From Pseudonocardia sp. (GTDB lineage Bacteria > Actinomycetota > Actinomycetes > Mycobacteriales > Pseudonocardiaceae), in contig JAJCYC010000071.1 in assembly GCA_029263115.1 (NCBI GenBank), positions 1-36,487 of the forward strand: a stretch of DNA of 36,487 nucleotides, given 5' to 3'. Below the pieces are notes generated by a model, which was not told the DNA's origin, ran no database searches, and worked only from the letters and a program-made list of their open reading frames with translations. The position numbers were made by a program, and so were the translations under genes. Below are positions 7,669-28,781 of the stretch, piece after piece. Every line of letters starts with the position of its first letter. The stretch's first letter is position 1.

Positions 7669-7742
7669 TGGAGCGGATGACGGGAATCGAACCCGCGTAT
7701 TCAGCTTGGGAAGCTGATGTTCTACCATTGAACTACATCCGC
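7669..7742 (-). tRNA. tRNA-Gly (anticodon CCC), likely integration target
   Basis: In minus sense it starts GCGGATG and ends CATCCGC-T-CCA, a perfect 7-bp acceptor stem with encoded CCA. The anticodon stem TCAGC/GCTGA encloses loop TTCCCAA, anticodon CCC. The T arm contains GGTTCGATTCC and the D arm AGTTCAATGGTAGAAC. The 3' end faces the integrase, as expected where an integrative element has inserted and regenerated the gene. I could not find the second copy of the 3' end that would mark the far attachment site within the window. Confidence 0.95.
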
Positions 7743-22456: not shown

Positions 22457-22510
22457 CGCGTGATCACGAAGTAATCTCGGGTCGACGTACAGATGTGGAG
22501 GGGCCTGCTC

Positions 22511-23473
22511 ATGGGTGAGCTGACCGCCCCGGTGCGCGACGAACCGTTCGTGCACGAGGGGTTCTTCTACACCGGCGGTGCCGACTACCTGGCGGGCACC
22601 GTGCCCTTCGTGCTGGACGGGCTCGCGGCCGGCGAACCGGTGGCGGTGGCGGTCCCGGGGGAGAACCTGGGGCGGATCACCGACGCGCTCGGCTCGGCGG
22701 CCGACGGCGTGCGGTTGCTGGACATGACGGTCGCCGGGCGCAACCCCGGCAGGATCATCGGCTCGGTGCTGACCAGCTTCATGGACGACCACCCCGGGCG
22801 GCGGGTCCGGATCATCGGCGAGCCGATCTGGGCCGGGCGCACCGACACCGAGTACCCCGCCTGCGTTCAGCACGAGGCGCTGATCAACGCGGCGTTCGCC
22901 GGCCGGGACGCGACGATCCTGTGCCCGTACGACACCCGCCGGCTGCCGCCGGCCGCGCTGCTGGACGCCACCGAGACCCACCCGATCCTGGTGGAGGGCG
23001 GGGAGCGGTTCTACAGCCCGGGCTACGTCGACCCGGTTCGGCTGGCCGCCCGGCACGACGTGCCGCTGGCCGAGCCGCCGGAGTTCTGCGACGTCGACGT
23101 CATGGTGTTCGACGAGCACGTCGGCGCCCGGGCGGTGCGCCGGTTCGTGCACGAGCGGGCGCAGCGGGCCGGGTTGGACCCCGGGCGGGTCGCCGACGTG
23201 CGGGCCGCGGCGCACGAGGTCGCGGTGAACACCCTGGTGCACACCCGGCGGCCGGGCATCCTGTCGGTCTGGACCGAGGGCACTCACCTGGTCTGCGAGA
23301 TCCAGGACAGTGGAACGCTCACCGACCCGCTGGCCGGCCGGCGCGCCCCTGAGCCGTGCGACGGCGCGGGTAGCGGGCTGTTCCGGGTGCACGGGCTGTG
23401 CGACCTGGTGCGCACGCACGTCACCGGGCACGGTCTGACCGTCCGCATGCACATGCGGCTAACGAACTGGTAA
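22511..23473 (+). CDS. MEDS-domain sensor with HATPase (RsbW-like) domain
   Basis: 320 residues from ATG 22511, with GGAGGGG seven bases upstream. The N-terminal 180 residues resemble the MEDS (DcmR sensory) domain: FFYTGGADYLAGTVPFVLDGLAAGEPVAVAV, with long matching stretches (RVRIIGEPIW, CVQHEALIN). The C-terminal 130 residues are a GHKL ATPase of the anti-sigma type, with N-box HEVAVNTLVH, G1 EIQDSG and G2 GSGLFRVHGLCD. No phospho-acceptor His domain is seen. Proteins of this class control sigma factors by partner switching; no sigma factor or antagonist is adjacent. It lies downstream of the T4SS-like operon but has its own promoter region. Confidence 0.88.
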   Translation: MGELTAPVRDEPFVHEGFFYTGGADYLAGTVPFVLDGLAAGEPVAVAVPGENLGRITDALGSAADGVRLLDMTVAGRNPGRIIGSVLTSFMDDHPGRRVRIIGEPIWAGRTDTEYPACVQHEALINAAFAGRDATILCPYDTRRLPPAALLDATETHPILVEGGERFYSPGYVDPVRLAARHDVPLAEPPEFCDVDVMVFDEHVGARAVRRFVHERAQRAGLDPGRVADVRAAAHEVAVNTLVHTRRPGILSVWTEGTHLVCEIQDSGTLTDPLAGRRAPEPCDGAGSGLFRVHGLCDLVRTHVTGHGLTVRMHMRLTNW

Positions 23474-23540
23474 TGGCACTGTAACAATCGACGAGCGTGG
23501 CACGCCGCGTCGCTCGCTGCCGATCAGTGACCTCTCCGTA

Positions 23541-23570
23541 GTGAAAACGTCGCTGACCTGCACTTATGGT
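23541..23570 (+). promoter_or_regulatory. candidate promoter of the 53-aa protein
   Basis: GTGAAA (23541-23546) and TATGGT (23565-23570) are 18 bases apart, giving a leader of about 45 bases that ends in AAGGAGGT. The match to consensus is moderate. Confidence 0.3.
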
Positions 23571-23620
23571 GACAAGCCCCGGCGTGGGACAGTCGACCTC
23601 CACTCTCACAAGGAGGTCCG

Positions 23621-23782
23621 ATGCTCGCCCTCGTCGCCGCCGTTGTCTTCCTCGCCTCGTTGATCTTCAAGCTTGCCAATCTCGATCTTGGCGTGATCGA
23701 CGTTGAGTTCCTGAACATCCTCGGGTTCCTGCTCGCGGCGCTGTACCTGGCCGGAATCGGCGGTCGCTCCTGGCGGCGGTGA
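23621..23782 (+). CDS. 53-residue two-helix membrane protein
   Basis: A small gene with an ideal ribosome-binding site, AAGGAGGT (23611-23618), three bases before the ATG. The product begins MLALVAAVVFLASLIFKL and has a second helix (FLNILGFLLAALYLAGI) separated by a short acidic turn (NLDLGVIDVE), ending in a basic RSWRR. The hairpin topology is clear; the function is not. It stands alone between the MEDS regulator and the converging DAHP synthase. Confidence 0.8.
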   Translation: MLALVAAVVFLASLIFKLANLDLGVIDVEFLNILGFLLAALYLAGIGGRSWRR

Positions 23783-23788
23783 GGAACG

Positions 23789-23843
23789 CGGGGGTCGGCG
23801 TTCCACACCGCGCGGCGTCAGCGCCCGCGCGGGCCGACCCCCG
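23789..23843. terminator. hairpin between convergent genes
   Basis: CGGGGGTCGGC (23789-23799) pairs with GCCGACCCCCG (23833-23843), with further nested pairing (CCGCGCG/CGCGCGG) inside. It lies just after the 53-aa gene and before the end of the DAHP synthase, so it could terminate both. There is no U-tract. Confidence 0.55.
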
Positions 23844-23896
23844 GCACCACCACCGGGCTCCGGGCGCCCGCCGGCACTGGCCGTGCTCCGCCGCAC

Positions 23897-24973
23897 TCAC
23901 GAGCGCCGCAAGCGCACCCCGGCGGCCAGGGACTCGAGCAGAGCCGCGGTGGTGTCCCAGTCCATGCAGGCGTCGGTGATGCTCTGGCCGCGGGTCAGTT
24001 CGCCGGCCCGGCCGAGGGTGAGGTCCTGCCGGCCGCCGACCAGGAAGCTCTCCAGCATCACCCCGGCTATCCCGGGCTCGCCGGTGCCGATCCGGGCAGC
24101 GATCTCGGTGACCACCTCGGCCTGGCGCAGGTGGTCCTTGCCGCTGTTGCCGTGGCTGGCGTCGATCACCACCCGCTCGGGCAGCCCGCCGCGGCGCATC
24201 CGGGTCAGTGCGTCGGCCACGTCGGCCCGGTGGTGGTTCGCCCCGCCCGCGCCGCCCCGCAGGATCACGTGGCAGTCCGGGTTGCCGGTGGTGGCGATCA
24301 GCGCGGCCAGCCCGTCGGCGTTGATGCCGGGGAAGACGTGCTCACCGGCTGCCGCGCGCACCGCGTCCACCGCCACCTGCACGTCGCCGTCGGTGGAGTT
24401 CTTGATCCCCACCGGCATGGACAGCGCACTGCACAGCTGGCGGTGCACCTGGCTGGCCGCGGTGCGGGCGCCGATCGAGCCCCAGCTGACCACGTCGGCC
24501 AGGTACTGCGGGGTGATCGGGTCGAGGAACTCGCAGCCCACCGGCAGCCCGAGCCCGGTGATCTCCAGCAACAGGCCCCGGGCCAGCCGCAACCCCTTGT
24601 TGACCGCGTAGCTGCCGTCCAGGTCGGGATCGTTGATCAGGCCCTTCCAGCCCAGCGTGGTGCGCGGCTTCTCGAAGTAGGCGCGCATCACGATCACCAG
24701 CCGGTCGGCGAGCTCGTCCCTGACTCCCGCCAGCCGGGCGGCGTAGTCCAGCGCGGCGTCCCGGTCGTGGATCGAGCACGGGCCCACGACGACCAGCAGC
24801 CGGTCGTCCCGGCCGTCCAGCACGTCGGTGATCTCGGCCCGCGCGCGCTCGACCCGCTCCGCGTCGGGGGTATCCAGCGGGTGCTCGGCGCGCAGCAGTG
24901 ACGGTGGGATGAGCGGGCTGATCCGGGCGGTGCGTCGGCCGTCCAGCTGGGGGACGGCGGCGGCGACGGACAT
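23897..24973 (-). CDS. 3-deoxy-7-phosphoheptulonate (DAHP) synthase, class I
   Basis: 358 residues, the usual length of AroF/AroG/AroH-type enzymes. Diagnostic parts are VVGPCSIHDRDAALDYA, MRAYFEKPRTTLGWKGLINDP, GCEFLDPITPQYLADVVSWGSIGART, GIKNSTDGD, HVILRGG and IDASHGNSGKDH. It condenses phosphoenolpyruvate and erythrose 4-phosphate in the first step of the shikimate pathway. The N-terminal extension and allosteric segments are those of the feedback-regulated class Ia/Ialpha enzymes; whether Phe, Tyr or Trp inhibits cannot be read by eye. AAGGAA precedes the ATG by about eight bases. A leader peptide and alternative RNA stems upstream indicate attenuation. Confidence 0.95.
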   Translation of the reverse strand: MSVAAAVPQLDGRRTARISPLIPPSLLRAEHPLDTPDAERVERARAEITDVLDGRDDRLLVVVGPCSIHDRDAALDYAARLAGVRDELADRLVIVMRAYFEKPRTTLGWKGLINDPDLDGSYAVNKGLRLARGLLLEITGLGLPVGCEFLDPITPQYLADVVSWGSIGARTAASQVHRQLCSALSMPVGIKNSTDGDVQVAVDAVRAAAGEHVFPGINADGLAALIATTGNPDCHVILRGGAGGANHHRADVADALTRMRRGGLPERVVIDASHGNSGKDHLRQAEVVTEIAARIGTGEPGIAGVMLESFLVGGRQDLTLGRAGELTRGQSITDACMDWDTTAALLESLAAGVRLRRS

Positions 24974-25015
24974 CGGGGCGTTCCTTTCGGCAGGAGCCGC
25001 CCGGAGCCCTTCGCG

Positions 25016-25077
25016 CCGAGCCGGCTCAGGAGACCGGCTCGGGGTGGGAGGTCAGCGCACGCGGCCGCCGCCGAGCC
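25016..25077 (-). promoter_or_regulatory. attenuator-like alternative RNA stems before DAHP synthase
   Basis: In minus sense three segments can pair alternately: GGCUCGG (25077-25071, inside the leader peptide), CCGAGCCGG (25042-25034) and CCGGCUCGG (25024-25016). The last two form a perfect 9-bp hairpin with a 9-base loop; the first two can form a competing 7-bp stem. A ribosome stalled at the aromatic codons leaves the first segment free, favouring the competing stem, while complete translation covers it. No U-tract follows, so termination would be of the U-less type. Confidence 0.65.
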
Positions 25078-25117
25078 CACCCGGGGCCGGCCAGCTAAAC
25101 CAGTAGTAGCGCCGCAC
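25052..25117 (-). CDS. aromatic amino acid leader peptide of DAHP synthase
   Basis: A 21-codon open frame starting GTG and reading MRRYYWFSW before a Gly/Pro-rich tail and TGA. Five of the six residues from position 4 to 9 are Tyr, Tyr, Trp, Phe and Trp. That is extreme for a random short frame in DNA of this composition, where such codons are rare. It ends about 80 bases before the DAHP synthase start. TACAGT (25125-25130, minus sense) lies seven bases before the GTG, which suggests a leaderless transcript beginning at the leader's start codon. The role would be to sense charged aromatic tRNAs. Confidence 0.75.
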   Translation of the reverse strand: MRRYYWFSWPAPGGLGGGRVR

Positions 25118-25124
25118 GTGGATC

Positions 25125-25130
25125 ACTGTA
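25125..25130 (-). promoter_or_regulatory. -10 box of the leader peptide/DAHP synthase transcript
   Basis: TACAGT in minus sense, seven bases before the leader GTG; it lies just outside the 3' end of the kinase gene, and any -35 would fall inside it (TTCGAC with a 15-base spacer is the nearest candidate). Confidence 0.45.
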
Positions 25131-25142
25131 CACGGCCCGGGT

Positions 25143-26486
25143 TCAGTCGAAGTCGGTGAAGCCGGGGACCCAGTCGATGACGATCTGCCGGGCCGAGGCG
25201 GAGCAGTCGATCTGAGACAGGATGCTGAACCAGCCGACCACCACCCGCAGCACCATCAGGTACTGTGGCGGAAGGCTCAGTGCGCGGCCGGTCTGGAAGT
25301 CGGCGCCACCGAAGTCGGTCAACCGGCCCCCCTCGGCCTGCGTGAAGTCGCGGTTGAAGTGGAAGTGGTCCTCGCGCAGCGGGTTGGCCATCGCGCCGAT
25401 GTAGTTCAGTGCGTCCGCACCGGTGACCCGGTCCTGCAGGCCGACGAACCCCTCGCGGCGCAGCAGCTCCAGCAGCTCGTCGGGCCGGGAGTCGGCGGCC
25501 AGCCGCAGGATCTGGCCGAGCGGGCGCGGGATGCCGTCGGGCAACCGGGCCACCGCGCCGAAGTCGATCATCCCGAGCCGGCCGTCGGGGAGCAGCCGGA
25601 AGTTGCCGTGGTGCGGATCGGCATGCAGCAGGCCGACCCGGGCCGGCGAGCTGAACATCAGCTCCATGACGGTGTGGGCGGTCCAGTCGCGGAGCTTCTG
25701 CTCGTCCCCGGGATTGGCAGAGTCCGCGGCCGGCTTGTGCGCCATCGTGGACAGCGGGACGCCCTCCAACCACTCCGAGACGATCACCTTGGGCGCGCTG
25801 GCCATCACCTTCGGTACCCGGACCTTGGGGTCGTCGCGCAGCGCGTCGGCGAACGCCCGCTGGCTGTCGGCCTCGGCGCTGTAGTCCAGCTCCTCGATCA
25901 TCCGGTCCCGCAGCTCGGAGATCACGGCGCGGACGTCGGTGCCCGGCACGATCCGCTGCAGCAGGCCGGCCAGCCGGGACAGCGTGCGCAGGTCGGAGGT
26001 CAGGGCCTGGTCGGCGCCGGGATACTGGATTTTCACGGCGACCTCGCGGCCGTCGTGCCAGATCGCCTTGTGTACCTGCCCGATGCTGGCCGCCGACGCC
26101 CGGTCGGTCTCGAACTCGGTGAACCGGCGCATCCAGCCCCGGCCCAGCTGCTCGGCCATGACACGCTCCACGTCGCGCGCCGGCATCGGCGGGGCCTGGG
26201 CCTGCAGCTTGATCAGCGCCTGCTGGTAGGGCTCGGTCAGCTCGTTGGGGATCAGCGCCTCGTACACGCTCAGCGCCTGGCCGAGCTTCATCGCCCCGCC
26301 CTTGAGCTCGCCGAGCACGGCGAACAGCTGGTCGGCGTTGCGCATGGCCAGCTCGGCGGCGAGCTGATCGCGGTCGGCGCCGGCCAGCCGGCGGGCCCAG
26401 CCGCCCACCGCGCGGCCGGCGATGCCCATCGGTAGCGCGCCGAGCTTGGCCGTCCGGGCGGCGGCGCGCCGTGGCGGATCACTCAT
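25143..26486 (-). CDS. ABC1/UbiB-family atypical kinase
   Basis: 447 residues from ATG 26486; GTG two codons upstream is possible, but TACGTT (26493-26498) lies six bases before this ATG, as in leaderless genes. The family's kinase-like motifs are visible: GGAMKLGQALS (KxGQ), AASIGQVHKA, the Lys in VAVKIQYPG, EELDYSAEADSQ, the catalytic LLHADPHHGNF, and MIDFGAV. ABC1 proteins act in isoprenoid-quinone or membrane lipid metabolism and may have ATPase rather than protein-kinase activity. A hydrophobic stretch near the C-terminus (MVLRVVVGWFSIL) may touch the membrane. It shares strand with DAHP synthase but the latter has its own promoter. Confidence 0.92.
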   Translation of the reverse strand: MSDPPRRAAARTAKLGALPMGIAGRAVGGWARRLAGADRDQLAAELAMRNADQLFAVLGELKGGAMKLGQALSVYEALIPNELTEPYQQALIKLQAQAPPMPARDVERVMAEQLGRGWMRRFTEFETDRASAASIGQVHKAIWHDGREVAVKIQYPGADQALTSDLRTLSRLAGLLQRIVPGTDVRAVISELRDRMIEELDYSAEADSQRAFADALRDDPKVRVPKVMASAPKVIVSEWLEGVPLSTMAHKPAADSANPGDEQKLRDWTAHTVMELMFSSPARVGLLHADPHHGNFRLLPDGRLGMIDFGAVARLPDGIPRPLGQILRLAADSRPDELLELLRREGFVGLQDRVTGADALNYIGAMANPLREDHFHFNRDFTQAEGGRLTDFGGADFQTGRALSLPPQYLMVLRVVVGWFSILSQIDCSASARQIVIDWVPGFTDFD

Positions 26487-26613
26487 GGGCACAACGTAAC
26501 CGACGGGTGACGGCCCGCCCGCTCAGCTGGGCAGTCGGCGGCGCGCGACGGACCAGGGCGGTGTGCGGTGCGGTCGAGGCCGGGCTGGCCGCCCGGCTGA
26601 GCGGTCCGCGCTG

Positions 26614-26869
26614 ATGGTGGGGTTGGCCGAGGTCCGGCGCTGGGACGAGGCCGCGGTGGAGTCGACGTTGACCGAGCTCACCGGGCGGCCGGACGCGCTG
26701 CTGCGGTTGGACGAGCGGCTGCCCGGCCCACCCAGACCCTCACCATCGACAAGCCCGGCTCGGACAAGGTCACCGGCTACGAGCTGGCCCTGGGCGCCTT
26801 CTAGGCAGTGCGGTCAACTCCAGCTTCGCGGTCAAGACCGGCTGTCACCTGCGGGCCGTCCCCCGCTGA
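26614..26869 (+). pseudogene. decayed coding remnants before the S9 peptidase
   Basis: Protein-like segments occur in three frames. From 26614 the frame reads MVGLAEVRRWDEAAVESTLTEL..., like the helical N-terminus of WXG100/ESX-associated proteins. From about 26730 another frame reads TQTLTIDKPGSDKVTGYELALGAF and stops; the third frame then gives GSAVNSSFAVKTGCHLRAVPR. No single frame is intact. I read this as one or two broken genes, with low certainty about identity. Confidence 0.35.
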
Positions 26870-26903
26870 GTCCGGCGCGGTCGCGGCCGGGAAGGATCGT
26901 GGG

Positions 26904-28781
26904 GTGATCGAGCACCCAGCGGCGGACGTCCCGGACCGGCTCTTCGACGACCCCGAGCGGGAGCGGCGCTGGCGGGCCCGCTTCCACGCCACCCGGGTGT
27001 CGCTGCCGCAGTGGGCGATGGACGCCCCGCACGCCTGCGTGTACAGCTCCAACGCCGGCGGGACCTGGGAGATCTACGCCTGGGACCGCTCCACCGACAC
27101 CCACCGGCAGGTGACCGACCGCCCCAACGGCACCCACGCCGCCACGATCAGCCCGGACGGGCGGTGGCTGTGGTGGTTCGACGACACCGACGGTGACGAG
27201 TTCGGGCGCTGGGTGCGCGAGCCGTTCGCCGGCGGGACCGCCTCGTGCGCGGTGGCGGCGGTACCGGTCCCCTCGGGCGCCCCCGAGGACGCGCTGGACG
27301 GCTACCCGGCGGGGCTGGAGATCGGCCGGTCACTGGTAGCGGTGGGCGCCGCGACCGACGAGGGCAGCACGATCTGGCTCAGCCGCGACGGCGGGCCGGC
27401 CACCGAGGTCTACCGGCACGCCGAGGACGCCGGGGTCGGGACGCTGTCGCACGACGAGACGCTGCTGGCCGTCTCGCACTCCGAGCACGGCGACTCCCGG
27501 CACCCGGCGATCCGGGTGCTGCGCTGCTCGGACGGCGCGGGGGTGGCCGAGCTGGCGGACGGCCCGGGCAAGGGGCTGACCCCGCTGGCCTTCCCCGAGC
27601 TGGCCGGCGACACCCGGCTGCTGGTCAACCACGAGCGGCAGGGGCGCGACGAGCTGCTGATCTGGGACGTGACGACCGGTACCCGGACCGAGCTGCCGAT
27701 CGAGCTGCCCGGCGACCTCACCGGCGACTTCTACCCGGACGGCACCGCGGTGCTGGTCGCCCAGACCCGCGCCGGGCGCAGCCGGCTGTACCGCTACACG
27801 CTCGCCGACGCGACGCTGACCGAGCTGCCAACCGCCCCCGGCTGCGTGGGTTCCGCGGGCGTGCGCCCGGACGGCACGGTGGAGTACGGCTGCTCGTCGG
27901 CGGCCACCCCGCCGCAGCTGCGGGCGCTGCACCCGGACGGCGCCGACCGGCCGCTGCTCACCCCGCCGGGTGAGCGGGCGCCCGGGTCGGTGCCGGTCCT
28001 GGACGTCTGGGTGCCCGGACCGGGCGGCGAGGTGCACGCCCTGCTCTCGGCGCCGCCGGGCGCCGACCGGCCGCTGCCGACGGTGTTCGCGCTGCACGGC
28101 GGCCCGCACGCGGCCGACGAGGACCGCTTCGACGCCGGCCGCGCGGCCTGGGTGGACGCCGGGTTCGCCGTGGTGGAGGTCAACTACCGGGGCTCCACCG
28201 GCTACGGGTCGGTGTGGCGGGACGCCATCGAGGGCCGCCCGGGGCTGACCGAGCTGGAGGACGTCGCCGCCGTGCACGACTGGGCGGTCGCCTCCGGGCT
28301 GGCCGACCCGGCCCGGTGCGTGGTCGACGGCTGGTCCTGGGGCGGCTACCTCGCCCTGCTGGCCCTGGGCGCCCAGCCGGAGCGCTGGGCGGGCGGGGTC
28401 GCCGGGGTTCCGGTGGCCGACTACCTCAGTGCCTACGACGACGAGATGGAGCAGCTGCGGGCGTTCGACCGGGCGCTGTTCGGCGGCTCGCCCGAGCAGG
28501 TGCCCGATCGGTACCGGGAGTGCTCCCCGCTGACCTACGTGGACCGGGTCCGGGCACCGCTGCTGGTGCTGGCCGGGGAGAACGACCCGCGCTGCCCGAT
28601 CCGGCAGGTGGACAACTACCTGGCGGCGCTGGCCGCGCGGCCGGACGCACCGGAGTACCGGGTGCTGCGGTTCGACGCCGGCCACGGATCGCTGGTGATC
28701 GAGCAGACGCTGCGCCACGTCGCCGCTGAGATCGCGTTCTGCCGGGCGGTCGTGAGCGCCGCACCCGTGGGCGGGAAGTAG
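26904..28781 (+). CDS. S9-family prolyl oligopeptidase-type serine peptidase
   Basis: 625 residues from GTG 26904, with AAGGA seven bases upstream. The N-terminal two-thirds (about 30-360) are repeats of beta-propeller character (TISPDGRWLWWFDD, GTLSHDETLLAVS). The C-terminal alpha/beta-hydrolase domain carries FALHGGPHAADED (oxyanion region), nucleophile Ser in GWSWGGYL (about 476), Asp in AGENDPRCPI (about 559) and His in DAGHGSLV (about 593). There is no signal peptide, so it is cytoplasmic. Members are acylaminoacyl- or dipeptidyl-type peptidases cutting short peptides; exact specificity is unknown. Confidence 0.92.
   Translation: MIEHPAADVPDRLFDDPERERRWRARFHATRVSLPQWAMDAPHACVYSSNAGGTWEIYAWDRSTDTHRQVTDRPNGTHAATISPDGRWLWWFDDTDGDEFGRWVREPFAGGTASCAVAAVPVPSGAPEDALDGYPAGLEIGRSLVAVGAATDEGSTIWLSRDGGPATEVYRHAEDAGVGTLSHDETLLAVSHSEHGDSRHPAIRVLRCSDGAGVAELADGPGKGLTPLAFPELAGDTRLLVNHERQGRDELLIWDVTTGTRTELPIELPGDLTGDFYPDGTAVLVAQTRAGRSRLYRYTLADATLTELPTAPGCVGSAGVRPDGTVEYGCSSAATPPQLRALHPDGADRPLLTPPGERAPGSVPVLDVWVPGPGGEVHALLSAPPGADRPLPTVFALHGGPHAADEDRFDAGRAAWVDAGFAVVEVNYRGSTGYGSVWRDAIEGRPGLTELEDVAAVHDWAVASGLADPARCVVDGWSWGGYLALLALGAQPERWAGGVAGVPVADYLSAYDDEMEQLRAFDRALFGGSPEQVPDRYRECSPLTYVDRVRAPLLVLAGENDPRCPIRQVDNYLAALAARPDAPEYRVLRFDAGHGSLVIEQTLRHVAAEIAFCRAVVSAAPVGGK

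Follow-up and report, generated by a model that had tools for sequence, protein, structure and literature searches.

The type I DAHP synthase gene (aroG) in the window, that is, the whole 36,487-nucleotide stretch of Pseudonocardia sp. DNA analysed here, is preceded by a short reading frame with Tyr, Trp and Phe codons and by RNA segments that can pair in mutually exclusive ways. As three-aromatic leaders and exclusive folds recur in many actinobacteria, this region is probably a switch for DAHP synthase, and we consider it very likely that it acts as a ribosome-mediated attenuator, through which the first enzyme of the shikimate pathway is controlled by the charging of the tRNAs for Tyr, Trp and Phe. 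A shortage of any one of these amino acids most likely turns aroG on. DAHP synthase controls the entry of carbon into the aromatic amino acids as a whole and into many actinobacterial natural products, and the leader would be a control point for strain engineering.

The leader frame and its conservation

The features of the region are listed in the order of transcription.

25125–25130, minus strand: −10 box TACAGT, 7 nt 5' of GTG 25117; a leaderless transcript is predicted
25052–25117, minus strand: leader peptide frame VRRYYWFSWPAPGGLGGGRVR, 21 codons from GTG 25117 to the TGA stop at 25052
25097–25108, minus strand: putative sensing codons Tyr4-Tyr5-Trp6-Phe7, the run of Tyr, Trp and Phe
25091–25093, minus strand: Trp9, a putative extra sensing codon
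25076–25090, minus strand: segment A (CCGGCCCCGGGUGGG, codons PAPGG), 5' strand of the antiterminator-like helix A:BC
25034–25048, minus strand: segments B and C (CCCACCCCGAGCCGG), directly after the leader stop; they pair with A, or C pairs with D
25017–25041, minus strand: C:D hairpin (CGAGCCGG...CCGGCUCG), exclusive with A:BC, with no U-run behind it
25018–25027, minus strand: segment D with its 5' flank (GAGCCGGCUC), 5' strand of helix D:E
24994–25002, minus strand: segment E (GGGCGGCUC), 3' strand of D:E, 7 nt 5' of the Shine-Dalgarno sequence
24982–24986, minus strand: Shine-Dalgarno AAGGA of the DAHP synthase gene, 8 nt 5' of its ATG
23897–24973, minus strand: type I (AroFGH) DAHP synthase, 358 aa (PF00793, E 3.7e-85)

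The gene product scored 476.5 bits against TIGR00034 (cut-off 173.2) in a profile search and is 76% identical to the DAHP synthase of P. spinosispora, and the leader resembles those of Pseudonocardia. The genome contains single DAHP synthase genes of type I and of class II; the stretch of DNA around the class II gene holds no comparable leader. Upstream, an ABC1-type kinase gene ends at 25143, while 78 nt separate the leader stop from the start of the DAHP synthase. The 21-codon aromatic frame and the −10 box seven bases before its GTG, both claimed in a preliminary description of this DNA, are present on the minus strand. The peptide was given there as MRRYYWFSW; the codons agree, and as the first of them is GTG the initial M presupposes initiation with Met. 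Use of an alternative in-frame GTG at 25126 would make the leader three codons longer; the leader starts of relatives align with GTG 25117. An Rfam search over the window returned no T-box or riboswitch, the sole match above the gathering score being a tRNA gene at 7672–7742 on the minus strand (RF00005, 76.3 bits); at a permissive setting, three matches were obtained within 24900–25300, all far below the gathering score. Positions 22493–23473 of the plus strand encode a protein that combines MEDS sensory and HATPase_c_2 domains, like an anti-sigma regulator.

Conservation was assessed in the best 80 of 578 DAHP synthase relatives, which belong to Pseudonocardia, Amycolatopsis, Rhodococcus/Prescottella, Nocardia, Saccharomonospora, Prauserella, Actinophytocola and Asanoa; counts out of 81 include the window. 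All 80 of these relatives carry an equivalent leader, usually of the form [MV]QR-(x)-YFWF-[ST]-x-PAPGG...R followed by the stop. A TANNNT box lies 6–8 nt 5' of the ATG or GTG start in 81/81 (7 nt in 60), the starts having been picked to maximise TANNNT spacing among in-frame ATG/GTG codons near the aromatic codons. Of the 81 leaders, 79 have codons for each of Tyr, Trp and Phe, the remaining two having Phe and Trp without Tyr. Comparison of the sequences thus establishes the leader, its predicted leaderless promoter and its three-aromatic content, and the window displays what is expected of an attenuator in this respect, a short leader, predicted to be translated, with codons for the amino acids of the pathway. 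The Phe codon that closes the run (25097–25099 in the window) is UUU in 68/68 aligned leaders, which is unusual for GC-rich genomes.

High-GC DNA is rich in short frames, with 57 mechanically called open reading frames of at least 20 codons at 22500–27500, and the leader could be a chance frame, or a translated upstream frame that serves only to boost reinitiation at aroG. A scan for ATG/GTG frames of 8–45 codons, with TANNNT 6–8 nt upstream and at least two aromatic residues per six codons, however, found no frame other than the leader at 25052–25117 on either strand of the window, and only two in the flanks of the relatives (406 kb, both strands counted), neither of them with three aromatics. 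The retention of the leader throughout the 80 relatives is likewise at odds with a chance origin, and the distance from leader stop to gene start, 69–97 nt in 81/81, is long for reinitiation. As the aromatic codons and A:BC are conserved, and the codon content tracks the position of the enzyme in the pathway (see below), either explanation is scarcely credible.

A covariance model built from the 68 alignment rows, applied with strict match filters, matched 18 of 296 genomes class-wide (E 0.01) and 47 of 200 order-wide (E 0.1). Because these filters were strict, the DNA upstream of DAHP synthase genes was read directly, at 72 of 109 type I DAHP synthase matches; the other matches comprised the window, 10 main genes with prior model matches, 15 of the 25 in the divergent subfamily f59, 8 of 13 extra copies and 3 fragments. 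A leaderless aromatic leader was found at 53/57 main DAHP synthase loci (families f1, f2, f3, f48 and f49), the loci without one being L127, L145, L146 and L147, and in 20/20 further f2 loci from 18 genera (20 read of 102 matches), giving 73/77 main-gene loci in total. The same criterion yielded a leader in 0/10 loci of f59 and in one of five second DAHP synthase copies (L148–L152), this being a weak frame with two aromatics; some second copies may lie in natural-product clusters. Two weak covariance-model matches, L098 and L100, proved to have no leader when the DNA was read, and at L096 the scan gave no qualifying frame, yet an ATG frame encoding SAYYWF is readable there. The leader peptides of the wider survey vary (SYRWF, YWRF, RWYAFF, QYWFF and WRFYF are examples), and 69/73 of them include each of Tyr, Trp and Phe, which, together with the close set, agrees with the earlier proposal of a sensor for all three aromatic amino acids.

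Codon content and position in the pathway

The covariance model also matched leaders 5' of other aromatic genes. These include a type I-beta DAHP synthase with the leader SAYYWF (L091), four proteins in which a partial DAHP-synthase-like domain is fused to chorismate mutase (L088, L089, L094 and L095) and a stand-alone chorismate mutase (L087). The fusions of family f18 (L194–L223) and the four just named are partial-domain fusions in which the N-terminal part of the profile is unmatched, and they have a Phe/Tyr leader; genomes with such fusions have a complete type I-beta DAHP synthase as well. The f18 fusion protein was matched in 79/80 genomes, many of them via the separate full DAHP synthase. 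The type I-beta DAHP synthase genes from these genomes, four of 20 of which were checked by Pfam, have a leader (for example MRTAFWFWYGDGP) at 19/20 loci, with Trp, Tyr and Phe in 19/19. At the fusion and chorismate mutase loci of f18 a leader was found in 22 of 30; several of the eight without one gave none since the match was a fragment. Phe occurs in 22/22 of these leaders and Trp in one (L204); in its correct frame, the leader of L203 is without Trp. The contrast in Trp between DAHP synthase and chorismate mutase leaders gave a Fisher p of 8e-11, which, like the permutation p-values in this work, is optimistic because the sequences are related.

Chorismate mutase supplies only Phe and Tyr; DAHP synthase supplies all three aromatic amino acids. 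The match between codon content and pathway position, which in f18 is drawn from few lineages, is the best sign in this sequence-based analysis that the codons are regulatory. The type I-beta DAHP synthase loci L224–L243 have a second type of leader, MRTAFWFWYGDGP..., together with a U-tailed terminator.

Competing RNA helices and the proposed switch

In the RNA, segment A lies inside the leader frame, B and C follow the stop, and D, E and the Shine-Dalgarno sequence come after them. In the window, 13 of the 15 columns of the A:BC helix are paired (−25.0 kcal/mol), which 12 of 2000 shuffled versions of BC equal. Segments C (25034–25041) and D (25017–25024) form an 8-bp hairpin, and D:E contains one unpaired G. 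As C is shared by A:BC and C:D, the two helices are mutually exclusive, and one of them uses the leader frame, as in an attenuator. The three mutually exclusive pairing segments of the preliminary description are supported, and the end of C:D at 25017 is close to the position 25016 given there.

Support for these helices was sought in an alignment of 68 of the 81 sequences, and in a cognate test that compared the duplex energies of true and permuted partners in 38 representatives of the 81 (below 86% identity). The strongest signals in the latter came from A:BC (z −5.2) and D:E (−5.3), followed by the pairing of B with the latter half of A (−3.5) and with the segment 3' of D (−2.9), that of E with the Shine-Dalgarno region (−2.2) and that of BC with an extended 3' arm (−2.1); six other pairings ranged from −0.7 to +2.8. 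In the alignment, A:BC and D:E are paired in 90.1% of cells, compared with ∼53% when shifted by one column, and cells changed on both sides number 30, against 15.5 in shuffles; two of the five measures, pair counts and pair-type counts, did not clearly exceed shuffles (80/500 and 226/500, respectively). Both-sided changes in D:E occur at alignment columns 127:181 and 128:170. These comparisons demonstrate A:BC and D:E as conserved pairings, and the lack of conserved codons and stems in relatives, which the preliminary description had named as grounds for abandoning its proposal, was not observed. The covarying stems named there as a check are borne out for A:BC, and D:E, absent from that description, can be added to them; C:D gave no covariation signal. 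The pairs of C:D are almost invariant across the 68 sequences, so covariation neither supports nor opposes this hairpin. RNAalifold, applied to the 68 rows, predicted a pairing between leader and E besides C:D and small local pairs, one of its 18 consensus pairs being doubly changed; the leader-to-E pairing was rejected given the cognate z of +0.8 for A:E.

Pairing of A with C extends to other families, where 26 distinct pairs had a mean of 10.96 of 13 positions paired compared with 10.27 when shuffled (0/5000), a set built from fixed A and C motifs by choosing the best-pairing C and collapsing identical pairs, which slightly favours pairing. Compensatory changes in these families include C-G to U-A and G-C to A-U. 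The leader start pairs with its own stop region beyond one s.d. of shuffles in 35/38 representatives, with a cognate z of −0.9; in the window, 25109–25117 is complementary to 25052–25058, the last codon and stop (GCGCUGA), which are invariant in 68/68 rows. It is possible that this pairing locks the leader when it is untranslated.

Window RNA trimmed at its 5' end is predicted to fold into A:BC, while RNA from the leader stop onward is predicted to form C:D. Since the first fold corresponds to RNA emerging behind a stall and the second to RNA freed at the stop, starvation should favour A:BC and expression, and plenty C:D and early ending. In the mechanism we propose, transcription would begin with the leader GTG, the ribosome loading on the leaderless 5' end of the RNA. 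Shortage of any charged aromatic tRNA would stall the ribosome at codons 4–7, with its front edge at about nucleotides 22–31, exposing the GGGUGGG half of A, which would pair with BC once BC is made; C:D could then not form and transcription would continue into aroG. When all three amino acids are plentiful, the ribosome would enter A and C:D would form, and the message would end at or just after this hairpin, at ∼100 nt, near 25016. We infer stalling, the direction of the response and early ending as the output of the compact form.

In the E. coli trp and pheA leaders, each of which is rich in the one amino acid that it regulates and forms competing helices, a ribosome stalled on the regulatory codons covers region 1. 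The leader in the window is like these in its abundance of regulated residues and in its competing RNA helices. It differs in that the stall would leave most of A free: with the ribosome edge at A-site +12, its usual footprint, the second half of A is free for 312/315 aromatic codons among the first 12 codons of the leaders. Classical trp-like logic, in which the stalled ribosome masks segment 1, was therefore rejected, and A:BC would be the permissive helix, unlike in E. coli trp and pheA.

Output of the compact form and relation to known leaders

A U-tailed hairpin follows C at 46/73 loci of the wider survey, and comparison identifies this as a true terminator in many relatives of the window. 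In the lineage of the window itself such a hairpin is absent, D following C after a short loop; we refer to this arrangement as the compact form. No U-run follows C:D in the window (the longest run in the next 25 nt is 1), and a U-run of at least four lies behind C:D in only 4 of the 81 sequences, making intrinsic termination in the compact form doubtful. The region had been described as a leaderless leader with a U-less terminator: the TANNNT spacing upholds the first term and the hairpin is indeed U-less, while its role in termination is doubtful.

In terminator-bearing relatives A:C abuts the terminator and does not overlap it. The leader:C helix of the folded stalled state ends 0–4 nt 5' of the terminator stem in 46/46 loci, its 5' strand lying within the leader frame in all 46. 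The terminator is predicted in both states across 38 terminator-bearing loci (mean P 0.95, 0.97 and 0.98) and is clearly lower on stalling in few (L110, L111 and L128, with a smaller drop in L124), so antitermination would need abutment or another effect. Given the spacing of 0–4 nt, a locked leader:C helix could prevent the base of the terminator from entering the exit channel of RNA polymerase. In the lineage of the window C:D would replace the terminator without a U-tract, and messages would be ended or blocked by another route. That these leaders constitute one attenuator family, in which the aromatic codons track the place of the enzyme in the pathway and the permissive helix abuts the 3' hairpin without stealing a strand from it, is a tentative and rather unlikely proposition; if true, all three aromatics would be expected 5' of DAHP synthase, and Phe with or without Tyr 5' of chorismate mutase.

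How the compact form acts on aroG could be explained in other ways. The same sensor may control translation, C:D freeing E to pair with the Shine-Dalgarno sequence, and A:BC letting D hold E and thereby opening that sequence. The lack of a U-tract behind C:D, the location of E near the Shine-Dalgarno sequence, its covariation with D and the cognate signal between E and the Shine-Dalgarno region are consistent with this view, and control by C. glutamicum aroR has been called translational in the available text of one report (PMC7356990). Predicted accessibility of the Shine-Dalgarno sequence, however, was higher in 13 and lower in 11 of 38 representatives between the two states, and higher in four and lower in five of 36 terminator-bearing loci (L129 and L142 dropped). 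As neither test supports Shine-Dalgarno switching, that mode of control was set aside, and we regard a translational output as unlikely. Alternatively, transcripts could end early at C:D through Rho or another factor, the stall and A:BC hiding a Rho site that is exposed after the leader has been completed. The compact form mostly has no U-run behind C:D and has a C-rich stretch 3' of the leader stop, and Rho has been proposed for terminator-less mycobacterial cys leaders, according to the accessible part of PMC1262725. The C-rich stretch, however, is already accounted for by its pairing with A, and a Rho-type output is possible but doubtful.

The sensor could also be an arrest peptide, the nascent chain responding to free aromatic amino acids. 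TnaC, whose nascent peptide senses Trp, provides a precedent, and the PAPGG part and the Arg-stop are conserved in the compact set. PAPGG, however, is encoded by segment A, and the peptides of other families differ (LALEEPA, QPARKPV and GSAPAG) although leader:C pairing is kept. The persistence of this pairing while the peptide changes points to selection at the RNA level, and an arrest peptide is therefore very improbable. The preferred reading, sensing of charged tRNA by a translating ribosome, has counterparts elsewhere in the phylum. Leaderless polycysteine uORF attenuators were reportedly described in mycobacteria by Canestrari et al. in 2020; these are also short leaderless frames whose codons sense the product of the pathway, in that case cysteine. 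We know of no A:BC/C:D architecture in the mycobacterial uORFs.

The closest known system is C. glutamicum aroR, a Phe-Tyr-Phe leader 5' of aroF (Mentz et al. 2013; PMC4046766, PMC11802643, PMC7356990 and PMC6892785, each as far as its available text goes), with a response reported for Phe and not for Tyr in the portion of PMC11802643 available, which also summarises attenuation of E. coli trp and pheA. As in aroR-aroF, an aromatic leader directly 5' of a type I DAHP synthase gene would exert ribosome-mediated control. The leader in the window differs in its Tyr-Tyr-Trp-Phe run, which includes Trp and is not Phe-Tyr-Phe, and in having C:D in place of a U-tailed terminator. Leader peptides, some without a typical terminator, have been reported in Streptomyces and Corynebacterium (Seliverstov 2005, PMC1262725); the accessible text of that study gives conserved structures only for the Trp, Cys and Leu pathways, plus T-boxes before ileS. 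The trp, ilvB and leuA leaders described there and in the 2021 reannotation of S. lividans (PMC8079986) resemble the present one in being actinobacterial, in several cases leaderless and in some without a typical terminator. No DAHP synthase leader is mentioned in the available parts of that study or of the S. lividans reannotation, and none such is listed in those of a C. diphtheriae transcriptome (PMC5784534). In a literature represented mostly by titles and abstracts, with subscription papers largely outside reach, no description outside Corynebacterium was found.

The leader in the window belongs with aroR, as a compact variant that has no U-tailed terminator, and such leaders range more widely than the accessible papers report. 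Judged against the literature accessible to us, the three-amino-acid sensor across several families and the compact form appear to be new, and such a sensor would explain how DAHP synthase is set in actinobacteria beyond the C. glutamicum system that has been studied. Leaders with and without a terminator, and with and without Trp codons, also provide a natural series for the study of attenuators in high-GC bacteria, which have few U-tailed terminators. Within this series the small-genome relatives L174 and L175 have, together with a U-tailed terminator, a leader containing RFYF, and thus the Phe-Tyr-Phe motif published for aroR.
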